Shown here: positions 5,887 to 21,633 of the stretch, in pieces | How the letters are laid out: each line of letters starts with the position of its first letter | How positions within the stretch are numbered: the first letter of the stretch is position 1 | IMG/VR virus record: IMGVR_UViG_3300024319_000085 | Coordinates: 1-21,633 of that record | DNA from: a virus | Length of the DNA stretch: 21,633 nucleotides | Strand: one strand, 5' to 3' | Program-made: the position numbers and the translations under genes | The notes under the pieces: model-generated | The model's input: only the letters and a program-made list of their open reading frames with translations | Databases searched by the model: none | Told to the model about the DNA's origin: nothing

Positions 5887-6480
5887 ATGTTATATGCAAA
5901 AATAAAAAAATATCTATCGCAAAATAATATTAATGTAGAAGAGGTTAATAATTATTTTGAAATTAAAGATTTATCTGATAGCAATGGGGCTTTTATTGAT
6001 TATTGGGATGATGATAAAATAGGAATAATTGAGCCGACTCAAGAACAATTAAACTCTATTGATGAGAATTTAATTCTCTTACAAGAAGCTATTCAAAATA
6101 AATTACAACAATTAGATACTTATCATTTTAATTCTGATGAAATAAGACAAATGACAATTAATGAATATTTTATTTTGTCATTATCTTCTGAAGGTAGAAA
6201 TTTAATTGCTGAACAAATGCAAAGTTTAGATCAACAAATAAAATTAAATGTTATAACTGAAGAAAGTGCAATATTTGAATATTTCTATAATGGAGGATCA
6301 ATTGAAATTACTTTAGTTCAATTGAGACAATTGTATATATTCATGCTAAATGTTGTTAACACTAATTATAGCGTTTATAAAGCTCATATTCATGCAATAA
6401 AAAATCTATCTACAATAGAAGAAATAGAAGCTTATGACTTTACAGCAAATTATTTAAAAAATCAGAACTTAAATGTTTAA
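5887..6480 (+). CDS. Tail fibre accessory protein, DUF4376-like
   Basis: A 197-residue protein of the type found directly after fibre genes. Residues 55-190 match the DUF4376 layout: a lead helix (ENLILLQEAIQNKLQQLDTYHF), then a strand-like 'SDEIRQMTINEYFILSLSSEGRNLIAEQM', then 'GGSIEITLVQLRQLYIFMLNVVNTNYSVYKAHIHAIKNLSTIEEIEAYDFT', where the family has 'lt..ql..l..av....~~~~~~~h...I..l.t..el..Yd.t'. The N-terminus (MLYAKIKKYLSQNN...WDDDKIGIIEPTQEQ) is shorter than a full fibre. It probably helps fold or cap the fibre, but no chaperone activity can be read from the sequence. Confidence 0.6.
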   Translation: MLYAKIKKYLSQNNINVEEVNNYFEIKDLSDSNGAFIDYWDDDKIGIIEPTQEQLNSIDENLILLQEAIQNKLQQLDTYHFNSDEIRQMTINEYFILSLSSEGRNLIAEQMQSLDQQIKLNVITEESAIFEYFYNGGSIEITLVQLRQLYIFMLNVVNTNYSVYKAHIHAIKNLSTIEEIEAYDFTANYLKNQNLNV

Positions 6481-10275: not shown

Positions 10276-11556
10276 ATGTCAATATTAGATAAAAAGTTAG
10301 TAAATTCTACTAACGAGAATAGGAAAAAAGCTATATTAGTCGCAGGGCAATCAAACACTTCATGGGCTACACAATTCGGAGTATCACCAGTAAACACTGG
10401 TGGGCTCGATTTAAAAATAACTCAACTAGCAAGGCATAACCAAAATGATCTTATCCCTACTATAAGCGGCTTAACAAATATTCATTTTCAAACTGCGGAT
10501 GGGGCTAGAACAAGCTATGCATATAGTTTAGCAAAAGATATTAGAAATGATATTGGATGCGAAGAACTATTAATAATTCCTTGTGCTATTGGAGGAACAG
10601 GATGGTCAGGTGGTCAGTGGTCAGCATCAGGATCTTTATATCAAGATATGATAGCTAGAGTAGAATACACTGTAAAAATATTAAAATATGATATAGTTGG
10701 TATATTCTGGTCACAAGGTGAATCAGATACTAATAGTAGTATAAGTTCTGTTTATAAATACTTATTATATAGCTTAGTTTCAACATTAAGAACAGTTATT
10801 TATAATTCAGGACAAGGAAATGCACATAATATACCTTTTGTCACTTTTGATATGGTTACTAACTGGGTGGGTTCTGATGTAGATAGATTAAATGTACAAA
10901 ACGCATTAGAGACTATCGGTAACAATATTAATTTTACCGCTAATGCTGATACTACAAATTTACCTAGCGATCTAGAAAATGATATAATACATTATGATAC
11001 TAGACAAATAATAGAATTAGGCCATAGATTGTTTGATGCTTGGAAGATAGCTTTAAATAATGATTTGCAAAACATTTATCAAAATACTCCAGGGGAAACT
11101 ATATTATATAATAGAGATTATGGACAATATTATTCTAATATATGGGAGGCCTTGTATTTTGGAAATTCTGAAACAGATAATAAATTTTCAAGATTATCTG
11201 ATATTTGGAAATATGAAAATAATGGTAAGTTTAAGTTTAAATTAGAATGGACTATATCTTCTCAATTATATTATATTATTTGGGAACAAAATTATATACC
11301 TTATTTTTGTGTTCCGTTGATGTGTGCGGCTAGCCTTATGGAACATTCTAATGGGGCTGTTTTCGGAAGAGATGATGGTATGGGGTTTGTAGGTTTAGTA
11401 TTTGATGGAGTCGACACCTTTATAAAATTGAATTCGTCAGGTGAGTGGTGGACACCTTTAGGTCAAAAAGCCTATTACGGTGGCGGTATTCCTATTTCTA
11501 ATATTAATGGTGATAAACTTGCGTCTAATATAAAATTAAAAGCTATTAAAACTTAA
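10276..11556 (+). CDS. SGNH-type carbohydrate esterase (SASA/CE6-like) with extra C-terminal domain
   Basis: A 426-residue protein (ATG 10276, four bases after the upstream stop; ATG 10237 in the same frame is possible). Residues 1-265 fit the sialate O-acetylesterase/acetylxylan esterase group: 'KAILVAGQSN' with the nucleophile Ser in GQSN, 'AIGGTGW' block II, 'VGIFWSQGESD' block III, and 'HYDTRQIIELGHRLFDAW' with the catalytic His. Such enzymes remove acetyl groups from glycans. The C-terminal 160 residues (PGETILYN...GWWTPLGQ.AYYGGG) are not recognised; they are Trp/Tyr-rich and may bind glycan or mediate attachment to the virion. No signal peptide is seen. Likely substrates are host surface polysaccharide or capsule. 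The stop lies inside the terminator hairpin. Confidence 0.75.
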   Translation: MSILDKKLVNSTNENRKKAILVAGQSNTSWATQFGVSPVNTGGLDLKITQLARHNQNDLIPTISGLTNIHFQTADGARTSYAYSLAKDIRNDIGCEELLIIPCAIGGTGWSGGQWSASGSLYQDMIARVEYTVKILKYDIVGIFWSQGESDTNSSISSVYKYLLYSLVSTLRTVIYNSGQGNAHNIPFVTFDMVTNWVGSDVDRLNVQNALETIGNNINFTANADTTNLPSDLENDIIHYDTRQIIELGHRLFDAWKIALNNDLQNIYQNTPGETILYNRDYGQYYSNIWEALYFGNSETDNKFSRLSDIWKYENNGKFKFKLEWTISSQLYYIIWEQNYIPYFCVPLMCAASLMEHSNGAVFGRDDGMGFVGLVFDGVDTFIKLNSSGEWWTPLGQKAYYGGGIPISNINGDKLASNIKLKAIKT

Positions 11557-11566
11557 TAGCTTTTAA
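11536..11566. terminator. Bidirectional intrinsic terminator between converging operons
   Basis: A perfect 13-bp inverted repeat (11536-11548 and 11554-11566) with a 5-nt loop. Left arm TTAAAAGCTATTA, right arm TAATAGCTTTTAA. The right arm is followed by AAATTCTTTT on the + strand, and the stem itself provides the T-tract in each direction. It sits exactly where the + strand late operon meets the - strand early operon, and it contains the stop codons of both flanking genes (11554-11556 on +, 11546-11548 on -). The stem is AT-rich, so its strength as a terminator is not certain. Confidence 0.75.
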
Positions 11567-11788
11567 AAATTCTTTTATCTTTTTATTGATTCTTAGAAAT
11601 AATATATTAATCCAAAGTTCATCTTCAATATTTAGACAAAATCTTTTTATGTCAAATCCTGAATTATCAGCTTTTATAAATATTTGGCATAAATATTCTT
11701 CTCCTATAGATATAGATCTACCTGAAGCTTCACAAATATATTTTTTCTTAGCTTTAGGATGTCTAGTTTTAATTAGTCTTTCTGTCAT
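11546..11788 (-). CDS. Unknown small protein with a zinc-ribbon-like remnant
   Basis: An 80-residue protein from ATG 11788; the frame is open further upstream but that would overlap the neighbour more. 'KKKYICEASGRSISIGEEYLCQIF' (cited as residues about 15-36) resembles the first knuckle of small phage zinc ribbons ('C..C...I..Ge.Y'), but the second Cys is replaced by Ser, so metal binding by this knuckle is unlikely. Later Cys (in LCQIF and RFCLNIE) exist. It overlaps the 3' end of the upstream gene by 20 bases. Function is unknown. Confidence 0.5.
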   Translation of the reverse strand: MTERLIKTRHPKAKKKYICEASGRSISIGEEYLCQIFIKADNSGFDIKRFCLNIEDELWINILFLRINKKIKEFLKAIKF

Positions 11789-12011
11789 TGTTATAATAAT
11801 TAATTGAAGGGTTAATAATTTTAAAAGCAACTTCGTTACTTCTATTCTCAATTGCATTTTTAACTGAATCTAGTTGCCCTTTTAACTGTTCAATGTCAGT
11901 CAAAATTGCTTCTAAATTTTCGTAATTATTAGCAATTAAAAATTCTATATCAGATAAAACGCGATGCATAGATCTAGGTTTTGTCTGTTTAAAGTTTTTA
12001 CAAATTGTCAT
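11769..12011 (-). CDS. Unknown small helical protein
   Basis: An 80-residue protein with a long predicted helix (about 18-58: LSDIEFLIANNYENLEAILTDI and QLKGQLDSVKNAIENRSNEVA) with heptad-like hydrophobic spacing, so it may form a coiled-coil dimer. There is no signal peptide. The start is preceded by TTGAAAGAAA, the same leader as the next upstream gene, which supports the ATG at 12011. It lies in a three-gene unit of small proteins behind promoter 12273-12301. I do not recognise a family. Confidence 0.5.
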   Translation of the reverse strand: MTICKNFKQTKPRSMHRVLSDIEFLIANNYENLEAILTDIEQLKGQLDSVKNAIENRSNEVAFKIINPSINYYNNDRKTN

Positions 12012-12021
12012 TTTCTTTCAA

Positions 12022-12180
12022 TTAAATATTCATACAAAAACGGTAATCCTCATAAGTTGTATTAACAGCTTTACATCTAGCATGAGAACTAGCAGCAGCT
12101 TTATATAATACAAAACAAGATAGAGAGATAAATAAACCAGTTAAAATATAGACTAATATATTTTTATATAATGTTTTCAT
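12022..12180 (-). CDS. Small membrane protein (52 residues)
   Basis: A short open frame beginning MKTLYKNILVYILTGLFIS, with one hydrophobic segment (about 7-26) after two Lys, followed by a small soluble part (YKAAASSHARCKAV...YRFCMNI) holding two Cys that could form a disulfide in the periplasm. It starts with the leader TTGAAAGAAA seven bases before ATG, like the next gene, and is the first gene after the promoter at 12273-12301. Those three points are the reason for calling so short a frame a gene. Small inner-membrane proteins in early phage units often interfere with host functions or superinfection, but no function is shown. Confidence 0.5.
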   Translation of the reverse strand: MKTLYKNILVYILTGLFISLSCFVLYKAAASSHARCKAVNTTYEDYRFCMNI

Positions 12181-12272
12181 AATTAGTTTCTTTCAAATTG
12201 AATAATATATGGATAATTTTCTCTTTTAAAACCATTAATAAAATTAAGTGATTTTCATCAGCTTATATAATA

Positions 12273-12301
12273 ATTATATAACATTGATTTTTAAAAGTAA
12301 A
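12273..12301 (-). promoter_or_regulatory. Sigma70-like promoter for the small-gene unit
   Basis: On the - strand, TTTACT (12301-12296), a 17-nt spacer, and TATAAT (12278-12273). The block TATTTTACTTTTAAAAA followed nine bases later by TATAATTA is shared exactly with the promoter at 14428-14456. It stands about 90 bases upstream of the 52-residue gene. On the + strand the same bases also form part of a 7-bp hairpin (12293-12299 with 12303-12309). Confidence 0.72.
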
Positions 12302-12349
12302 ATACTTTTTACACATTTTAAAATATTTTTTATCTAAGCTCAAAACTGT

Positions 12350-13693
12350 CTAATTTTGATACAACTCATGTTTTAAATAATCAATCAAATCCTTTTGTGT
12401 CTTAGCTTTGCCTGATAATGCAAAGAATAATACTTTTTCATCTAAACAACCCTTGGCTATTAAATGGATATTTCTTACAATATTTTTTTGCCCTTGTCTA
12501 TGAAGTCTTTTATTGAACTGTTGATAATACTCTAAATTCCATGTTAATCCATACCAAATTATTACATTTCCACCATATTGTAGATTAAGGCCATGGCCTG
12601 CTGATGCTGGATGGGCTAATAATATTTTTATTTTTCCTTTATTCCAATCATCTTCTTGTTTAGCTGTTTCTAATTTAACAGCTTTAGGAAAAGCTTTTTG
12701 TAGTTTTTCTAAATCGTGTTTATAGTTATATGCTACTAAAAAATTTTCTCCTGGATTATCTTCAATAATTTCTTTTAGTCTTTCTATCTTTTCATTATGA
12801 ATTTCATGGACATTTCTTTCTGCGTCGTAAACTGATCCATTACATATTTGAAGCAATTTATTTCCAAGAGCCGCTTTAGAAGGTGATTCAATGTCAATAT
12901 CATCTAAAGAAATAATAAATTCTTTTTCTAACTCTTTATATTGTTGTTTTGCTTTATCAGGAAGTTCTATAAATTCATTTACATTTATACATTCAGGAAG
13001 CTCTAAATAATCTTCTGCGGTCATAGTTACACAAACATCTTTAATTAATTCCATTATTTGTTCTTTTGCTCCTGGTTTTAATTTATAATTATATCCCATG
13101 TAACCGTCAGGAACAAAGAATCTTTGCCTATAATTTGTTATTGTTCTTCCTAAACGTTCACCTTGGTCAATTAAATACATTTGGCTCCATAAATCCATCA
13201 TTCCATTAGGGCTAGGCGTTCCTGATAATAAAACAATAGATCTAATATATTTCATTACTTTTTTCAAAGCTCTAAATCTTTTTGCTCTTGCTGATTTAAA
13301 ACTACTACTTTCATCTATTACAACCATATCCCATTTCCACTTACATTTTTCTATAAGCCATGGCACATTTTCTTTATTTATTAAGGTTATAGTTTTATTT
13401 GAATTAATAGCAGATAATCTTTCATCTACTGATCCTGTAGCAATTGCGATATCAAGCTCTTGTAAATGTTCCCATTTTTGTGCTTCTTTATGCCATACAT
13501 TATTTGCAACTTTCAATGGCGCAATAATTAATATTCTTTCTACAGAAAAATTATAATATAGATCATGAATAGCAGTAAGAGTTGTTGTAGTTTTACCGAG
13601 ACCCATATCTAAAAATAAAGCACATTTCTTTTTATTTAATACTACATTTAAAGCAGAATTTTGGTAATGATGTAAATTTTCTCTTTTAAGCAT
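12350..13693 (-). CDS. SNF2/DEAD-like helicase
   Basis: A 447-residue superfamily 2 ATPase of the SNF2 type common in phages. The motifs are in order: 'HHYQNSAL' Q-like entry, 'LFLDMGLGKT' Walker A (30-35), 'ILIIAPLKVANNVW' motif Ia, 'DMVVIDESSSFKS' Walker B (DESS, 127-130), 'LLSGTPSPN' motif III, 'FLVAYNYKHDLEKL' in the second RecA domain, 'LAHPASAGHGLNLQ' motif V and 'NKRLHRQGQ' motif VI (396-402). Such proteins move on DNA and may help replication fork restart or initiation. The start overlaps the stop of the VRR-NUC gene by one base (TAATG), and a GGAAGA sequence lies just before it. The VRR-NUC plus SNF2 pairing occurs in many phage replication modules, which suggests they act together. 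Confidence 0.9.
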   Translation of the reverse strand: MLKRENLHHYQNSALNVVLNKKKCALFLDMGLGKTTTTLTAIHDLYYNFSVERILIIAPLKVANNVWHKEAQKWEHLQELDIAIATGSVDERLSAINSNKTITLINKENVPWLIEKCKWKWDMVVIDESSSFKSARAKRFRALKKVMKYIRSIVLLSGTPSPNGMMDLWSQMYLIDQGERLGRTITNYRQRFFVPDGYMGYNYKLKPGAKEQIMELIKDVCVTMTAEDYLELPECINVNEFIELPDKAKQQYKELEKEFIISLDDIDIESPSKAALGNKLLQICNGSVYDAERNVHEIHNEKIERLKEIIEDNPGENFLVAYNYKHDLEKLQKAFPKAVKLETAKQEDDWNKGKIKILLAHPASAGHGLNLQYGGNVIIWYGLTWNLEYYQQFNKRLHRQGQKNIVRNIHLIAKGCLDEKVLFFALSGKAKTQKDLIDYLKHELYQN

Positions 13694-14463: not shown

Positions 14464-15585
14464 TTAGTTATTGTAAATTAATTGTCTATATTCTTCTACA
14501 GTTAAATTATTTTCTTTTAAAATTTTATCGTCCGAAGGATGTTCAGGTTTATTGAAAGTGTCAATAAGGCCTAACTCTAACATCTTTTTTTGTCTTCCAA
14601 AAGGATGGTCAATTATATTGCTACTATTCCAGGTTGAATCTAAACAAAGATGGTCATAATCTGATCCTGGTTTAATATAATTTTCAATCCATCGTATAAA
14701 ATCGCAAGCAATATCTTCAGAATTATATGGAACTGCTCCTGTGTCATTATAAATTTTATCTGTTAAAGCATCAAGAAAATCTAATTGCTTCATTCCTTTA
14801 GGCCTTTCTGCTAAATAGTTTAAACATTCTATTGCATTTTTACCATAAAAGAAATGTGATTCTCTATTTATAAATCTAGGAAAAAAATCCGCAATGTCAG
14901 CCAAAGTTGCAGCATATTGGAATCTAAATACTTTAAAACCTCTTGCTTTATTGAATCTTTCTAAAAATCCCATTAATGTTCTGAAATTTTTAGCTGATCC
15001 AGTTTGTAAATAATTAGCAAAATCTTTACATAATCCTGGTAAATGTTCACACATAAAATAATCTCCTCCTAATTTATAATCTCCTTGAGCTTTAGGAAAA
15101 GGTGCTATTTGATAGCCTACGCTTGTAAATTTAGGTCCTTTAAATTCTTTTATTACTTTAACCATATCTTCTACAGAATCACAAGTATGGAAATGTAAAA
15201 GAATAGAATTATAATAACCAGATGGATTTTTAGCATAATTAATACCTGATCCTGTAAGTCTATGAACAAAAAAGACAAATAACCATTCAGGCAAATCCCA
15301 TAATTCTGTGTGAAATTTATCAACTATTTCTTTTCTCCATTTAGGCATTTTTGCTTTATATGGGTGAGTTTCATAATCATGCCATATATCTAAGACTAAT
15401 TGAGTAAAACCTGCATATTTTCTTGCACATACATCATAAAGATAAACATTCTTTATTAGATCATCATCCCATGGAGTTTCTTTATATGGAACTAATCCTA
15501 AATTACAATTTTCATGCTGCCATTTAGAAATTTTAGCATAATAAATAAATTCTTCGTAATATTTTGTTGTCTGTAAATTATGCAT
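14464..15585 (-). CDS. Putative DNA base-modifying enzyme, amino acid:DNA transferase / aGPT-Pplase-like
   Basis: A 373-residue helical protein. I chose ATG 15585, which overlaps the upstream stop as ATGCATAA; starts at 15627/15624 would add 14 residues and a 50-base overlap. The layout resembles the thymine hypermodification group first named alpha-glutamyl/putrescinyl thymine pyrophosphorylase, related to helix-hairpin-helix glycosylases. 'KETPWDDDLIKNVYLYDVCARKY' (about 36-57) parallels 'kPWT.DpIL..y.f.NV.Re.d', 'HRLTGSGINYA' (108-118) and 'GYYNSIL' parallel a 'ltGSGa......Gy.Nsil' motif, and 'IAPFPKAQG', 'FPRFIN' and 'PYNSEDIACDFIRWIE' are further conserved-looking blocks. Characterised relatives join an amino acid or amine to activated 5-hydroxymethyluracil in DNA. 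Its neighbours (hydroxymethylase, PLP enzyme) support this. The match is by memory and is moderate. Confidence 0.52.
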   Translation of the reverse strand: MHNLQTTKYYEEFIYYAKISKWQHENCNLGLVPYKETPWDDDLIKNVYLYDVCARKYAGFTQLVLDIWHDYETHPYKAKMPKWRKEIVDKFHTELWDLPEWLFVFFVHRLTGSGINYAKNPSGYYNSILLHFHTCDSVEDMVKVIKEFKGPKFTSVGYQIAPFPKAQGDYKLGGDYFMCEHLPGLCKDFANYLQTGSAKNFRTLMGFLERFNKARGFKVFRFQYAATLADIADFFPRFINRESHFFYGKNAIECLNYLAERPKGMKQLDFLDALTDKIYNDTGAVPYNSEDIACDFIRWIENYIKPGSDYDHLCLDSTWNSSNIIDHPFGRQKKMLELGLIDTFNKPEHPSDDKILKENNLTVEEYRQLIYNN

Positions 15586-16504
15586 AGTCAAAAGCTGATT
15601 GATCTCCCCATTCTCTAACTCCATCAATATCTTTCCAATTAGATATTTCTGAAAGTCTATTTTCTATTTGTTTATCTGATCCTACGTTTATAAATATAGC
15701 ACCAGGTTTTCCTTCATCAATAAATCTTTTATATGCTTTTGCATCATAAGTAGTTGTAGTATTAAACTCGGGCATATATTCTGATTTTTGATAAAAAGAT
15801 CTATGGTAAGATACTACATCAGCATTTCCTTTTTCTCCATCTTTAATATTTCTTGCTACAGCAACGCCTTTAGCATCAGCATTAGGCCAACCTATTTGTA
15901 AAGCTCTTATCATAGTTCCTGTTGAAACTGCGCAATAAAATTCTGTAGGTTCACCATAAATTAATCTATGATTTTCACACATATTTATTAATCCTGCAGT
16001 AACTTCAGGAGTATTTGCTAACCCGAAAGGTAAAGCAATAGCATTAAATTTTTCTGCCCAATCACGAATCCAAGAATTTAAACAAGGCATAGCTGGAATC
16101 TTAACGAATCTTAAATCACAATTCTTATAAGCTAAAACAACAGCTTGATGAGGCGTTACTTGTTTTGATGCTGCTGCAAAGAATACTGTCTTTTTATTAT
16201 ATATTTCTGAAAGCATTGCAATAGCTTCAGCAGCATGTCCTACTCTTGGAGCAGCATAACCTAATAAATTTGATCCCATTTCAGCAATAAACTTTTCTGC
16301 CCCATAGGCTTTTAATCCACATGGCCCTTTAGCAAAGTCTAAAATAAAAATATCATCTCTTTCAGGAGATGGATAAAATTCAGGCATAGGAAGTTTTGAT
16401 TTAAACTCCCCATATAAATTCAAATAATATTCTCTACATTCTCCGAATTGTATATTATGGAAAAGTTGATCTTTATTTTTATTTGATTCAGTTATTTCAT
16501 ACAT
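15578..16504 (-). CDS. Putative fold-type II PLP-dependent enzyme
   Basis: A 308-residue protein with a tryptophan-synthase-beta / ACC-deaminase-like plan. 'FAKGPCGLKAYGAEKFI' (57-73) sits where fold-type II enzymes have 'GGNK.R', making K65 the candidate Schiff-base lysine. 'APRVGHAAEAIAMLSEIYNKKTVFFAA' (85-111) matches the helix and strand after the substrate-binding loop (S.GN...A.A......). 'FYCAVSTGTMIRALQIGWPNADAKGVAVA' (189-217) matches the glycine-rich phosphate-binding 'GsGGT..G......p..kv.gV' with STGT. It is shorter than most family members (about 330-400). It could generate or tailor an amino group on a modified base or its precursor. It lies one base after the SGNH-like gene and overlaps the transferase-like gene by eight bases. 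Confidence 0.5.
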   Translation of the reverse strand: MYEITESNKNKDQLFHNIQFGECREYYLNLYGEFKSKLPMPEFYPSPERDDIFILDFAKGPCGLKAYGAEKFIAEMGSNLLGYAAPRVGHAAEAIAMLSEIYNKKTVFFAAASKQVTPHQAVVLAYKNCDLRFVKIPAMPCLNSWIRDWAEKFNAIALPFGLANTPEVTAGLINMCENHRLIYGEPTEFYCAVSTGTMIRALQIGWPNADAKGVAVARNIKDGEKGNADVVSYHRSFYQKSEYMPEFNTTTTYDAKAYKRFIDEGKPGAIFINVGSDKQIENRLSEISNWKDIDGVREWGDQSAFDYA

Positions 16505-16505
16505 T

Positions 16506-17501
16506 TTAATTCCAATTATAAATTGATCGATAATATTTAGGAGCTATGTGCACAGATGAGTGTAATTCCATTATTTCTTTTGCATATTCATCTCCTGGCA
16601 TTGTATACCATTCTTTAGGTGGTTCTATAAGATCAAAGTCAAAACAATAATCGTTAAGATATTTTATAAAGTCAAATGTAAATTTTAATCTTTCCCATCT
16701 TGCTCCATAAAAATTTTGTCCTTCGAATTGTCCTGTTTTAGGTAGTTTTCTTAATTCGTGTTCTATAGGAACAGGAGCACAAACTTTTATAGGGATGTTA
16801 TAAAAATTTTGCCATTTAATTATTTCTTTGGCATATAGATCAGCAAATTCTTTTGCAGTAAATGTTTTTAATCTTAATAAATGAAACCTTATATCAATTG
16901 ATCCTAAACATAATGTTATTTCTTTAATCTTTTTAGGTTTATTTTGGTAATTTAAAAATGAATCTAGTCCTGATTTACAAATTACACTATATAATGTTTT
17001 TCCATTTAATCTTGTTATTGCTTGATCTTTAGTTGAAAATGCTAGCGTGTGACTATCACCTATGATCCATTTATCTAAGTCAAGCGATTCCATTGGAAGA
17101 TATTTTGCTTTATTCAATATCTTTTCAAATTTTTCTAAGAAGTCAAAATCAACCATTTCTGAAGTTGTTTTTGCACCGATTCGTTTTTCTATTTGAGAAA
17201 TATAATTACAATCTTTTATTTTCCAATCTAAAGAAAATAATTTAGCTTCATTATCTACTGCTTCCATTAAATTATAACAATTTGAAACTATATCATCATT
17301 GAATCCTCCAAATAAGTTCAAAGATCCATGAAAATTAACCCCATGGTCAATATAAATATTTTCATAGTCTAATAAATCAGTTTCTTTTGTTGCTATGTCA
17401 GCATCTAATCTTTGCGCCCACATAAGTGCCCATCCTCTAATATGGCTTTTTTCTGATTTAGGAATTGGAGTAAAAGGATTATAAATTACAGATTTTTTCA
17501 T
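16506..17501 (-). CDS. GDSH-motif SGNH-like protein of unknown function
   Basis: A 331-residue two-part protein. Residues 145-331 have SGNH-like blocks: 'WIIGDSHTLAF' (GDSH at 148-151, Ser nucleophile position), 'VICKSGLDSFL' (block II Gly), 'LCLGSIDIRFHLLR' (GxxD in place of the GxND block III), and 'SSVHIAPKYY' (H318 as block V, with Ser where the Asp of DxxH is normal). The N-terminal 140 residues (YNPFTPIP, 'YENIYIDHGVNFHGSLNLFGGFNDD', 'KLFSLDWKIKDCNY') are not recognised and could bind a nucleotide or sugar. It lies between the hydroxymethylase (19-base gap) and the PLP-like enzyme (one-base gap), so it may act in the same pathway, for example as an acyl transferase or esterase on a modified base. 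Changed catalytic blocks leave activity open. Confidence 0.5.
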   Translation of the reverse strand: MKKSVIYNPFTPIPKSEKSHIRGWALMWAQRLDADIATKETDLLDYENIYIDHGVNFHGSLNLFGGFNDDIVSNCYNLMEAVDNEAKLFSLDWKIKDCNYISQIEKRIGAKTTSEMVDFDFLEKFEKILNKAKYLPMESLDLDKWIIGDSHTLAFSTKDQAITRLNGKTLYSVICKSGLDSFLNYQNKPKKIKEITLCLGSIDIRFHLLRLKTFTAKEFADLYAKEIIKWQNFYNIPIKVCAPVPIEHELRKLPKTGQFEGQNFYGARWERLKFTFDFIKYLNDYCFDFDLIEPPKEWYTMPGDEYAKEIMELHSSVHIAPKYYRSIYNWN

Positions 17502-17520
17502 TTTATTTTTATTAATTTTA

Positions 17521-18177
17521 TCATTTTATTAGATCAAAATGTCTAGGGTAAATATGAAGAGTTGCAGCATTCCAAAATAAATGCCCAAAACGCAAATGTT
17601 TATAAGTCTTCTTTAATTGTTTATATGCTAAGTCATGAACAAAATGATGCCAATAAGAATCGTTCTTATAACCAAATATTGCATCATTACTTCTCATATA
17701 AACATGATAATAAAGATAATCGTTTCTTATCATTAATTGAACACTATATGTGCACATAAAATCATTCATACCATCTCTTACAGCATCTGCATGCATAGAT
17801 GGACGAATATAAATCATGGTTGCTTGTCTTGATAATTTACCATTTTCTAATTTAGCTATGGCATTTTCAAATTGACTTCCATTCTCTTCTGAAAATATAC
17901 ACCAACCGTAATTTGAGTTTATCCAACCATCTTTTGTTGCAACTTCTTTCCATATAGAAGGGATTTTGCCTTCTATATCATTTACATTTCTACTTTGACT
18001 TAAATACCATTTTACTTCTGATTTAGCGTATTTTTCATTTAACTCTCCAAATATTACTAAATCATTAGAAATAAATGAAGCATTTAATATCTCATAAGTT
18101 CCATTATCAGAAAGTAATTTATTTTCTTTAAGTCTTATAAATTCTTTTCTTATATGTTCTACATTATATCGTTCCAT
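17521..18177 (-). CDS. Thymidylate-synthase-family pyrimidine hydroxymethylase (probable dUMP hydroxymethylase)
   Basis: A 218-residue TS-fold protein. The motifs are clear: 'GWINSNYGWCIFS' (the TS 'dLGpvYG..wr' strand), 'SRQATMIYIRPSMH', 'NDFMCTYSVQLMIRNDYLYYHVYMRSNDAIFGYKND' (residues 138-173) with nucleophile C142, R162-S163-x-D165 in place of QRS.D, and 'TLHIYPRHFD' (H208, Y210). MCT in place of the PCH of true thymidylate synthase and the short 'GYKND' loop are typical of phage hydroxymethylases, which add CH2OH rather than CH3. N172 is near the residue that distinguishes dUMP (Asn) from dCMP (Asp), but D173 is adjacent and the alignment is ambiguous. With a dCMP deaminase nearby, dUMP to 5-hydroxymethyl-dUMP is the better guess. 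Confidence 0.75.
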   Translation of the reverse strand: MERYNVEHIRKEFIRLKENKLLSDNGTYEILNASFISNDLVIFGELNEKYAKSEVKWYLSQSRNVNDIEGKIPSIWKEVATKDGWINSNYGWCIFSEENGSQFENAIAKLENGKLSRQATMIYIRPSMHADAVRDGMNDFMCTYSVQLMIRNDYLYYHVYMRSNDAIFGYKNDSYWHHFVHDLAYKQLKKTYKHLRFGHLFWNAATLHIYPRHFDLIK

Positions 18178-19559: not shown

Positions 19560-21365
19560 TTATAATTCAGTAATTCCAAGATCGTCTAAAATCGACATTG
19601 ATTCTTCAATATATCGATCATAGTCAATATCTTTTGGAAATTCACAATTCAAATCCATAATTGGCCTAGATCCTTCAGATTTTGCCACTTTAGGAAATGT
19701 TCCTGTTTTATTAGGCTTTTTGTATTTAATAACGTCTCCGTTAGTTGAATAAATCCACCTTACGACGCGACCTAAATATGTGTCTTTATAAGTTGCTCCT
19801 CCCGTTACACTCCTTACATGCAAGAATTCTTTTAAATCTTTACAATTTCTGATAGTTTCAGAAATAGGAATATTATCAACTAAAAGTTTTATTACTGCAT
19901 TTATAATAATTGTTGCTTGAGGATTTTTTTGAAGTGAATCAAGAGTAAATATACCTTTTCCTTTATAGCCATAATCAGTTATTGCTAAATAATTATTAAC
20001 ATCTCTTGAGTAAAGCGCTTTATATCTAGTTTCTTCTAAAACAAAACCTGTAGTTAGTTCCCAATCAAAACAAATAGAATCATATCTTTCATATTGCTCT
20101 TTAGTTAATAATGACACAAACCCATCTGTATTAGATGAAATTACTGAAATATCATTATTTTCTAATTCTTCAATAAGCATTAACAAAGAAAGTTGCCCCG
20201 TTAATGTTACAGCAATCATTAAGTCAGGTGAGTATAAAGCTGAGTATTTACTTCCTAATTTACCAAATGATCCATTAATAACAATCTTTAATGATTCATT
20301 TACTATCTTATTACCTTCTTTTTTAGCTTTAAGCCTTTCCTCTACAATTTCTTTATATACGTCTAAAAAAGGTGTTCCTAAATGTCTTGGATAAAGTTTT
20401 TGATTTAAAATAATAGATGGATAATAAGACGCAACATCTTTATCTATTAAAAATTGATGTTCTGTTGGTATTATAGCTTGTTTCTTTTCTGTTGAGTGAA
20501 TACCACCTATTCCTAATTGATAAATAGAATTTCCTAATTCTATTTTAGCATTTTTTAAAACTGAAGGTAATTTAATTGATCCTTTACCATCTAATTCAAA
20601 ATCATTTGTTTTAATTATTTCTAATATATCTTTTAATTGTTTTGATTTAAATGAAATAAAATCAGGAACTTCATATTTAAAAGTTTTTCCATTAGGTATT
20701 TTAGGAGTTTTACAATATATTCTTTTCTTTGTTAATTCTGATTTAATAACAACTTCTGCTATTTGTGCATCTGATTTAGAAAGTAAATCTTGTCCGTATT
20801 TATTAGACATATCTACTCTTAGTTTTATTCTATCTTCAATTTGACGATATAAGTCAATTGTGGTATCAAGATCATTAATACAATATAACTTAGTCTCTTC
20901 CATTTCATTTTCTGATAATATAGAATTAGGTTCAATTGGAAGATCTTGTAATTTATCAGAGTGCATTCTACCTCCATAAAGTTTTAAGCTTACTCTAACT
21001 CCAGGTGAAGGTTCTTGAATATCAAAATGCTTTATTGAATTAGGCCAGAATAAACTAAAGTTTTGTAATGTTTTCCATCCAGGAGAGTTGTTTTCAATGA
21101 TGTAATTAGATAGTTTACATATTTCTTTTGCTGTTTTTCCTTGTAAAGCAAAAAGAATAATTGGCATATCATAATTTCTACTGTTAAAACCAAATGTTGT
21201 TCTAACAGTCATTATTTGTTGAAGTTTTTTTAATGAATTTTCATTTAATGAAGAACTTTTACCTTTTATCTCAATAGTAAAAGTTTTTTGATTATCTATA
21301 TTCTTAAATGCAAATAATGTATAATTTGGATAGACTTCACAGTCCAATACAACTAAATCTTTCAT
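19560..21365 (-). CDS. Family B DNA polymerase with 3'-5' exonuclease
   Basis: A 601-residue replicative polymerase, short for the family (usually 750-900). Exonuclease motifs: 'VVLDCEVYPNY' (D8, E10), 'FGFNSRNYD' (D66) and 'YCINDLDTT' (Y161, D165). Polymerase motifs: A 'DKDVASYYPSI' (D310, DxxSYYPS), B 'KIVINGSFGKLGS' (K360, N364, F367-G368), and C 'SSNTDGF' (N412-T413-D414). Motif C has Asn in place of the first Asp of DTD; the second Asp, the metal ligand, remains. 'YLAITDYGYKGKGIF' is the KxY-like block, and the C-terminus (residues 515-601) forms a short thumb. No TPR insertions of the protein-primed type are obvious. The start at 21365 has the only good Shine-Dalgarno sequence of the window (AAGGA), inside an elaborate leader. 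A polymerase with a modified-base diet is conceivable. Confidence 0.85.
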   Translation of the reverse strand: MKDLVVLDCEVYPNYTLFAFKNIDNQKTFTIEIKGKSSSLNENSLKKLQQIMTVRTTFGFNSRNYDMPIILFALQGKTAKEICKLSNYIIENNSPGWKTLQNFSLFWPNSIKHFDIQEPSPGVRVSLKLYGGRMHSDKLQDLPIEPNSILSENEMEETKLYCINDLDTTIDLYRQIEDRIKLRVDMSNKYGQDLLSKSDAQIAEVVIKSELTKKRIYCKTPKIPNGKTFKYEVPDFISFKSKQLKDILEIIKTNDFELDGKGSIKLPSVLKNAKIELGNSIYQLGIGGIHSTEKKQAIIPTEHQFLIDKDVASYYPSIILNQKLYPRHLGTPFLDVYKEIVEERLKAKKEGNKIVNESLKIVINGSFGKLGSKYSALYSPDLMIAVTLTGQLSLLMLIEELENNDISVISSNTDGFVSLLTKEQYERYDSICFDWELTTGFVLEETRYKALYSRDVNNYLAITDYGYKGKGIFTLDSLQKNPQATIIINAVIKLLVDNIPISETIRNCKDLKEFLHVRSVTGGATYKDTYLGRVVRWIYSTNGDVIKYKKPNKTGTFPKVAKSEGSRPIMDLNCEFPKDIDYDRYIEESMSILDDLGITEL

Positions 21366-21372
21366 ACTACGT

Positions 21373-21377
21373 TCCTT
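21373..21377 (-). promoter_or_regulatory. Ribosome binding site of the DNA polymerase gene
   Basis: AAGGA on the - strand, seven bases before ATG 21365. It confirms that start. It lies within CAAGGAACGT (21378-21369), whose exact complement occurs 122 bases upstream in the transcript in the loop of a hairpin (21509-21500). Most other genes in the window have no such site. Confidence 0.8.
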
Positions 21378-21387
21378 GAATTAATAG

Positions 21388-21481
21388 TTTAAGCGTAAAA
21401 TAAAGTAGGGTCTGATCCTACGTCTCTTAATAAAATATTAAGTATTTTAACTGTCACTAAATTATTTATTTTACGCTTAAA
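21388..21481. repeat. Perfect 17-bp inverted repeat enclosing two hairpins
   Basis: Arms 21388-21404 (TTTAAGCGTAAAATAAA) and 21465-21481 (its exact reverse complement). Between them on the + strand are GTAGG/CCTAC (21405-21409 with 21417-21421), directly abutting the left arm, and CTTAATA/TATTAAG (21426-21432 with 21436-21442), followed by 22 unpaired bases. As RNA this is a three-way junction; as DNA it could extrude as a cruciform or serve as a binding site. Confidence 0.85.
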
Positions 21482-21482
21482 A

Positions 21483-21531
21483 GTAACATTATGTTGCGCC
21501 AAGGAACGTTGAAACATCAACATAATGTCAC
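21483..21531. repeat. Inverted repeat with a loop complementary to the polymerase ribosome binding site
   Basis: Arms 21483-21496 and 21518-21531 pair over 14 positions with one mismatch (11 perfect pairs, 21486-21496 with 21518-21528). The 21-nt loop (21497-21517) holds CAAGGAACGT on the + strand (21500-21509), so the - strand transcript carries ACGTTCCTTG there, exactly complementary to 21378-21369 beside the polymerase start. Confidence 0.85.
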
Positions 21532-21633
21532 ATTTAAACGCAAAAAGTGCTAGTCTTTCCTAGCAGTCAGATAGTTAATTACTCTATCAATCGCCTTTCG
21601 GCTATTTGGCTCGGTCGTAGGGAAAAGCCCGAT

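Follow-up and report, generated by a model that had tools for sequence, protein, structure and literature searches.

What occupies the 268 nucleotides ahead of the DNA polymerase gene of this virus, and does the stretch work as an RNA? The window, by which we mean the whole stretch of DNA analyzed, covers an IMG/VR contig from end to end (21,633 nt; 27.7% G+C), and the element lies at its right edge (21366-21633). Downstream of the element, on the minus strand, is the DNA polymerase gene (19560-21365), which matches phrog_1252 (E 3e-194) and whose version in relatives is annotated as DNA polymerase B. A preliminary description had read the 268 nt as one large structured leader or noncoding RNA that may continue beyond the contig.

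An intercistronic junction of several parts

An ORF scan confirmed that 21366-21633 is free of ORFs of at least 60 aa, and a tRNA/tmRNA search found neither in this interval. The perfect 17-bp stem described previously is present (21388-21404 with 21465-21481, 100% complementary), as is the hairpin with a GNRA loop. We noticed, in addition, an inverted repeat larger than the 17-bp pair (21469-21496/21518-21545, 28 nt, 86%). The 268 nt as a whole folded with z = -4.9 on either strand, and 0 of 200 shuffles were as good. By part, the fold signal in the window was z = -7.4 for a hairpin that we call S1 and z = -5.6 for a module that we call S2. The edge segment with the GNRA hairpin folded weakly (z = -1.8; 10 of 200 shuffles equally good).

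The contig L004, whose polymerase is 100% identical to that of the window, extends past the contig edge. The expected continuation was found there, but the gene-free stretch goes on for only 17 nt, to the stop codon of the upstream gene. In the relative L038, this upstream gene encodes a gp2.5-like single-stranded DNA (ssDNA)-binding protein (Enc34_ssDNA-bd, PF10991/phrog_112), and a DUF2800 exonuclease-like gene lies upstream of it. The gene order DUF2800, OB-fold protein, polymerase is found in named phages, Vibrio phage LP.1 among them. Because the ssDNA-binding-protein stop sits 17 nt past the edge in L004, the 268 nt are an intercistronic junction.

A terminator scan assigned the segment next to the edge (21542-21633, minus strand) to the 3' untranslated region (3' UTR) and intrinsic terminator of the ssDNA-binding-protein gene. 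It contains the GNRA hairpin GCC-GAAA-GGC (21593-21602, minus strand), the terminator stem (21548-21565, minus strand), and a U-run (21542-21546). The terminator stem is compensated between lineages (CUAG/CUAG to CUCG/CGAG). The junction is thus not a single large RNA but several parts on the minus strand: a 3' UTR with terminator, S1, and an optional S2. The terminator hairpin TGCTAGGAAAGACTAGCA (21548-21575) also matches short, mostly unannotated spots of 21 to 28 nt in Acinetobacter and Cellulophaga phages and is probably a common terminator type.

A promoter scan, which covers the sigma-70-like type only, found no such promoter in 21300-21633. Elsewhere in the window, an AT-rich stretch of 338 nt without an ORF of 60 aa lies between minus-strand genes (12012-12349), and the interval 11500-12500 has 15 sigma-70-like matches versus 7.9 in shuffles. 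Side by side in another region on the minus strand (14464-18177) are genes resembling those for thymidylate synthase (PF00303) and threonine dehydratase (phrog_7093), together with two ORFs of unknown function; we take this group to resemble thymidine hypermodification clusters.

S1 is a conserved RNA hairpin on the polymerase strand

S1 (21469-21545, minus strand) consists of a 5' strand (21521-21545), a loop (21494-21520), and a 3' strand (21469-21493). In eight aligned copies, 98.9% of the cells of its 24-pair stem are paired and 7 pairs have changed on both sides; when the partner strand was slid by 1 to 3 columns, 42 to 54% of cells were paired and 0 to 3 pairs had changed on both sides. 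The covariation of S1 and S2 comes from three or four independent sequence lineages. Between the window and L017, a more distant relative, S1 is 83.8% identical, compared with 54.7% at third codon positions of the polymerase gene. The loop contains AACGUUCC, which is invariant in all S1 copies and is the only loop block invariant as such.

Across the copies, G-U pairs fill 22 cells, spread over 8 pair positions, and A-C fills none. S1 folded with z values of -7.4 (window), -8.0 (L017), and -8.6 (L012) on the polymerase strand but only -3.0 (window) and -2.4 (L017) on the opposite strand. The better fold together with the G-U cells indicates that the functional molecule is the RNA of the polymerase strand. 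S1 is therefore a genuine, evolutionarily conserved RNA hairpin on this strand. Its 5' strand starts inside the U-run of the terminator, so S1 would form only on RNA that reads through the terminator.

S2 competes with S1 for a shared strand

The S2 module (21388-21481, minus strand) is built from the 17-bp stem P1 (21465-21481 with 21388-21404), a one-sided bulge of 43 nt with conserved AGUGACAGUUAA and UUAAGAGAC (21422-21464, minus strand), and a short hairpin, H3 (21405-21421, minus strand). Support for its covariation comes mainly from L017, whose polymerase is 62% identical to that of the window in the best tblastn segment. Between the two, 4 pairs of S2 have changed on both sides (0 when the partner was slid), and P1 of L017 has a 3-bp insertion matched on both strands. 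The covariation check suggested at the outset thus came out in favor of both structures, with compensatory changes above the slid controls. The S2 core is 81.7% identical between window and L017, against the same 54.7% at third codon positions. S2 alone shows no strand polarity.

P1 reuses the 3' strand of S1, and the full S1 and S2 stems are therefore mutually exclusive. In lineages A and B (defined below), the S1 3' strand can pair either with the S1 5' strand or with the S2 3' strand. Constrained folds with the S1 base or with P1 were 1.7 to 3.3 kcal/mol apart (-39.6 versus -42.3 in L007), a difference small enough to make both folds plausible. The locus thus has one hallmark of a bistable switch, two conserved, mutually exclusive helices sharing a strand. 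We also considered pairing of AGUGACA in the S2 bulge with the S1 3' strand and dropped it, as this pairing is lost in L017.

The stem of S1 brings to mind sites for RNase III. S1 could be a processing or retroregulation site like lambda sib or the early intercistronic sites of T7, where a cut would separate or destabilize the binding-protein and polymerase messages. The sense-strand stem is long with few interruptions, is confined to read-through RNA by its start in the U-run, and is compensated while AACGUUCC alone stays invariant as a loop block, all of which fit such a site. At an RNase III site, however, the invariant AACGUUCC of the loop and an additional module with its conserved bulge would be superfluous, and we regard a processing site as rather unlikely.

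The S1 loop is complementary to the polymerase ribosome site

A segment of the S1 loop, ACGUUCCUUG (21500-21509, minus strand), is complementary to the Shine-Dalgarno (SD) region of the polymerase gene, CAAGGAACGU (21369-21378, minus strand). The match extends over 10 bp, which was reached in 2 of 5,000 shuffles for the window and 0 of 5,000 for L008, values to be read with the pairing having been picked post hoc and the shuffles ignoring relatedness. The duplex has a predicted energy of -16.6 kcal/mol. SD-like leaders are found in about 3 of the 28 window genes examined (those at 5887 and 7728 and the polymerase gene), and most starts follow A/T-rich sequence. Lineages A and C have practically the same complementary sequences, which leaves no covariation to score. 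Both the polymerase SD and the UUG of the loop are missing from lineage B (L017, L038). In lineage B and in the transferred copies described below (L028 and others), no SD is complementary to the loop, yet AACGUUCC is kept; the S1 loop must therefore have another role too, or instead. Loop/SD pairing does not explain AACGUUCC in copies without a matching SD, where it may instead belong to a processing site or to an operator bound by a protein.

We consider it about an even chance that the element is a cis-acting intercistronic leader RNA, carried on read-through mRNA of the polymerase strand, that limits polymerase expression. The conserved pairing, its strand and position, the mutual exclusion of the stems, and the loop complementarity are observed, whereas read-through, translational control, and a role for S2 are what we infer from the sequence. 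Most transcripts from the ssDNA-binding-protein gene would stop at the terminator, and those reading through would carry S1, which would limit polymerase output. In lineages A and C, the S1 loop and the SD may pair into a pseudoknot, masking the ribosome site. Such translational throttling is the most likely action there, and we propose it tentatively, with less than even confidence. The S2 3' strand would compete for the S1 3' strand, giving two folds of nearly equal energy, and S2 may in this way tune the effect of S1.

S1 is restricted to one clade

S1 is carried by the window, L004 to L011, and L013 (lineage A), by L012 (lineage C), and by L017, L032, and L037 to L039 (lineage B), and in all three lineages it lies before the polymerase gene. 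In the polymerase tree, A plus C and B are grouped (93/90), with one member, L194, lacking S1; since only L194 is without it in this grouping, one gain and one loss of S1 fit the distribution. S2 varies at the same spot within lineage A (present in the window, absent from L008) and within lineage B (present in L017, absent from L038 and L039). That S2 is dispensable in both lineages counts against the leader reading.

In relatives with 60 to 67% polymerase identity, the junction is mostly 29 to 64 nt long (up to 79 nt), with a hairpin near the start codon. Such short junctions with the hairpin so close to the start leave little room for a promoter, and the polymerase mRNA of these relatives most likely comes from readthrough of the hairpin. 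Readthrough of this kind would yield plenty of binding protein but little polymerase, and in the clade of the window S1 would have been added onto the read-through RNA. Searches with covariance models (CMs) found no S1 or S2 in these relatives. Across 96 sources, they found no copy beyond those found by pattern, and S1 occurred only in the clade and in the transferred copies. The preliminary description had named relatives with unrelated sequence as evidence against a functional RNA; within the clade S1 is kept, but outside it the short junctions are indeed unrelated. A widespread RNA class is thus not supported. Close relatives must express their polymerase without S1 or S2, a further point against the leader reading.

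Some further matches were set aside. Reverse-strand CM matches are the mirror of the same palindromes. Six S2-pattern matches in genome contigs have no H3 hairpin and were judged to be chance, and a looser S2 pattern in viral contigs added only L150, where the match is located inside an ORF.

The position of S1 between exactly the polymerase and ssDNA-binding-protein genes, with the invariant AACGUUCC loop at the end of its stem, suggests a third reading, an operator for autogenous repression by one of these two proteins. There is precedent in T4 for both (PMC3014915), where gp43 and gp32 of T4/RB69 act in this way. S1 is missing, however, from relatives with 60 to 67% identical polymerases, and the transferred copies stand before another gene, in a phage type whose longer contigs yielded no such polymerase. 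We judge repression by either protein to be quite improbable.

Several carriers have rearranged junctions. In L007 (4481-4903), and by the same rearrangement in L013, which comes from another metagenome, part of the polymerase start is present twice. The partial copy runs for 17 codons and then passes into the upper half of an S1 in its short form, lacking S2; a small membrane-protein-like ORF and then the intact polymerase gene follow, and the junction shares CATTAT. In L006 (3370-3547) and L011, a small membrane-protein-like ORF (MIGYLYYIILLILLGAIAFCHGKLIGKIDSSMKDR), similar to one in L007, lies between S2 and the polymerase SD. Among isolated phages, the Pseudoalteromonas phages AL and PHS21 (L152, 1470-1490, and the same place in L155) have a short hairpin between the terminator and the polymerase SD, with a compensated stem (TGTGG-CTACT-CCACA versus TGCGG-CTACC-CCGCA). 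This hairpin is possibly a separate leader operator of the polymerase.

The S1-S2 unit in another phage type

We also found S1 plus S2 in four contigs from four metagenomes (L028, L030, L033, and L034), where the unit is flanked by two small ORFs and precedes an HNH gene and a terminase gene. The gene that follows is an unrelated ORF of 102 aa, and the longer contigs of the L028 phage type yielded no relative of the window polymerase. Three contigs with terminases 97 to 99% identical (L054, L055, and L057) have an empty site; in L054, the identity downstream of this site is 100% over 1,380 nt. The transferred unit is about 160 nt long, its limits lie close to the S1 base on one side and the P1 end on the other, and it keeps its orientation relative to the downstream gene. 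Its right junction has AAACTATG in common with the empty site. With the same junction in four contigs from four metagenomes, we rejected an assembly artifact. The evidence for transfer is the one event seen.

The earlier claim of a functional RNA upstream of the polymerase, lying in the same orientation, is well supported by the compensatory changes in S1 and S2, by strand polarity, and by the absence of an Rfam match. The notion of one large RNA does not hold, since the edge is a 3' UTR with terminator and S2 is optional.

An inverted repeat that moves may also act as DNA, forming hairpins at a replication origin, a recombination site, or a mobile insertion. The occurrence of the unit in an unrelated phage whose relatives have empty sites, S2 being present or absent at one spot in two lineages, and the rearrangements adjoining the element would all agree with this. 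For S1, the 22 G-U versus 0 A-C cells and the much worse fold of the other strand argue against it; there is also no transposase and no clear target-site duplication, and the ectopic junctions share short sequence only. We hold a DNA-level element to be very unlikely, though S2, which alone shows no strand polarity, may yet be one. HEARO/IscB, retron, and other mobile-RNA identities were rejected as well, with no Rfam match and no partner gene adjoining the window copy.

If the leader reading is extended to the transferred copies, S1 plus S2 might be a portable, promoter-less RNA control cassette built on strand swapping (a, a', a). A unit of about 160 nt would move between unrelated phages and control whichever gene follows, and S2 would be an optional addition setting the switch. 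This is a speculative proposal that we think has a small chance of being right.

Relation to known systems

The element had been said to match no known class, and a search of Rfam 15 with the window and L017 agreed: no family reached the gathering threshold, and there were only sub-threshold, chance-like matches at E values up to 10. In the literature on phage polymerase leaders, we found no description of S1/S2. In our reading, S1/S2 is an undescribed, clade-restricted phage leader RNA.

Lambda sib/tI retroregulation depends on a long hairpin that forms only upon transcription through a terminator. S1 is alike in being a long hairpin that would form upon terminator readthrough, but lambda sib/tI leaves the conserved loop and S2 unexplained, and cleavage of S1 by RNase III is conjecture. 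PeSL cassettes are mobile promoter/stem-loop units of T4-like phages. As in PeSL, S1 plus S2 is a short intergenic stem-loop unit common to several phages, and it sits where small genes have been inserted. It differs in that its structure is kept on one strand by compensatory change and in its movement between different phage types, with one event seen. No sigma-70-like promoter was recognized in 21300-21633, whereas a PeSL has an early promoter joined to its stem-loop/terminator. PeSL cassettes of T4-like phages are cited in PMC4503421.

Functionally, the operators in the leaders of gene 43 (DNA polymerase) and gene 32 (Ssb) of T4/RB69, where a hairpin or pseudoknot lies near or over the ribosome site (PMC3014915), are the nearest known systems. 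Like S1, they are hairpins or pseudoknots in the leaders of phage replication genes. Their hairpins, however, have 16 to 18 bases compared with the 24-bp stem of S1, for which protein binding is putative. S1 also differs in following directly on a terminator, with the binding-protein gene on one side and the polymerase gene on the other, and in having an optional competing S2. The manA and wcaG motifs of marine phages are structured leader RNAs (PMC2864571) and, like S1/S2, are phage leader RNAs known mainly from metagenomes, but they belong to different genes, and S1/S2 has no Rfam match.

Replication-gene leader RNAs are well known in T4-like phages, and little is known of them for the large group of phages with a B-type polymerase and an Enc34-like ssDNA-binding protein. 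In these phages the junction comes in different forms, having a bare hairpin, S1, S1 plus S2, or an extra small gene, which makes the contribution of each part to polymerase output testable. If the cassette does move between phage types, it would be a case of regulation spreading without any gene.
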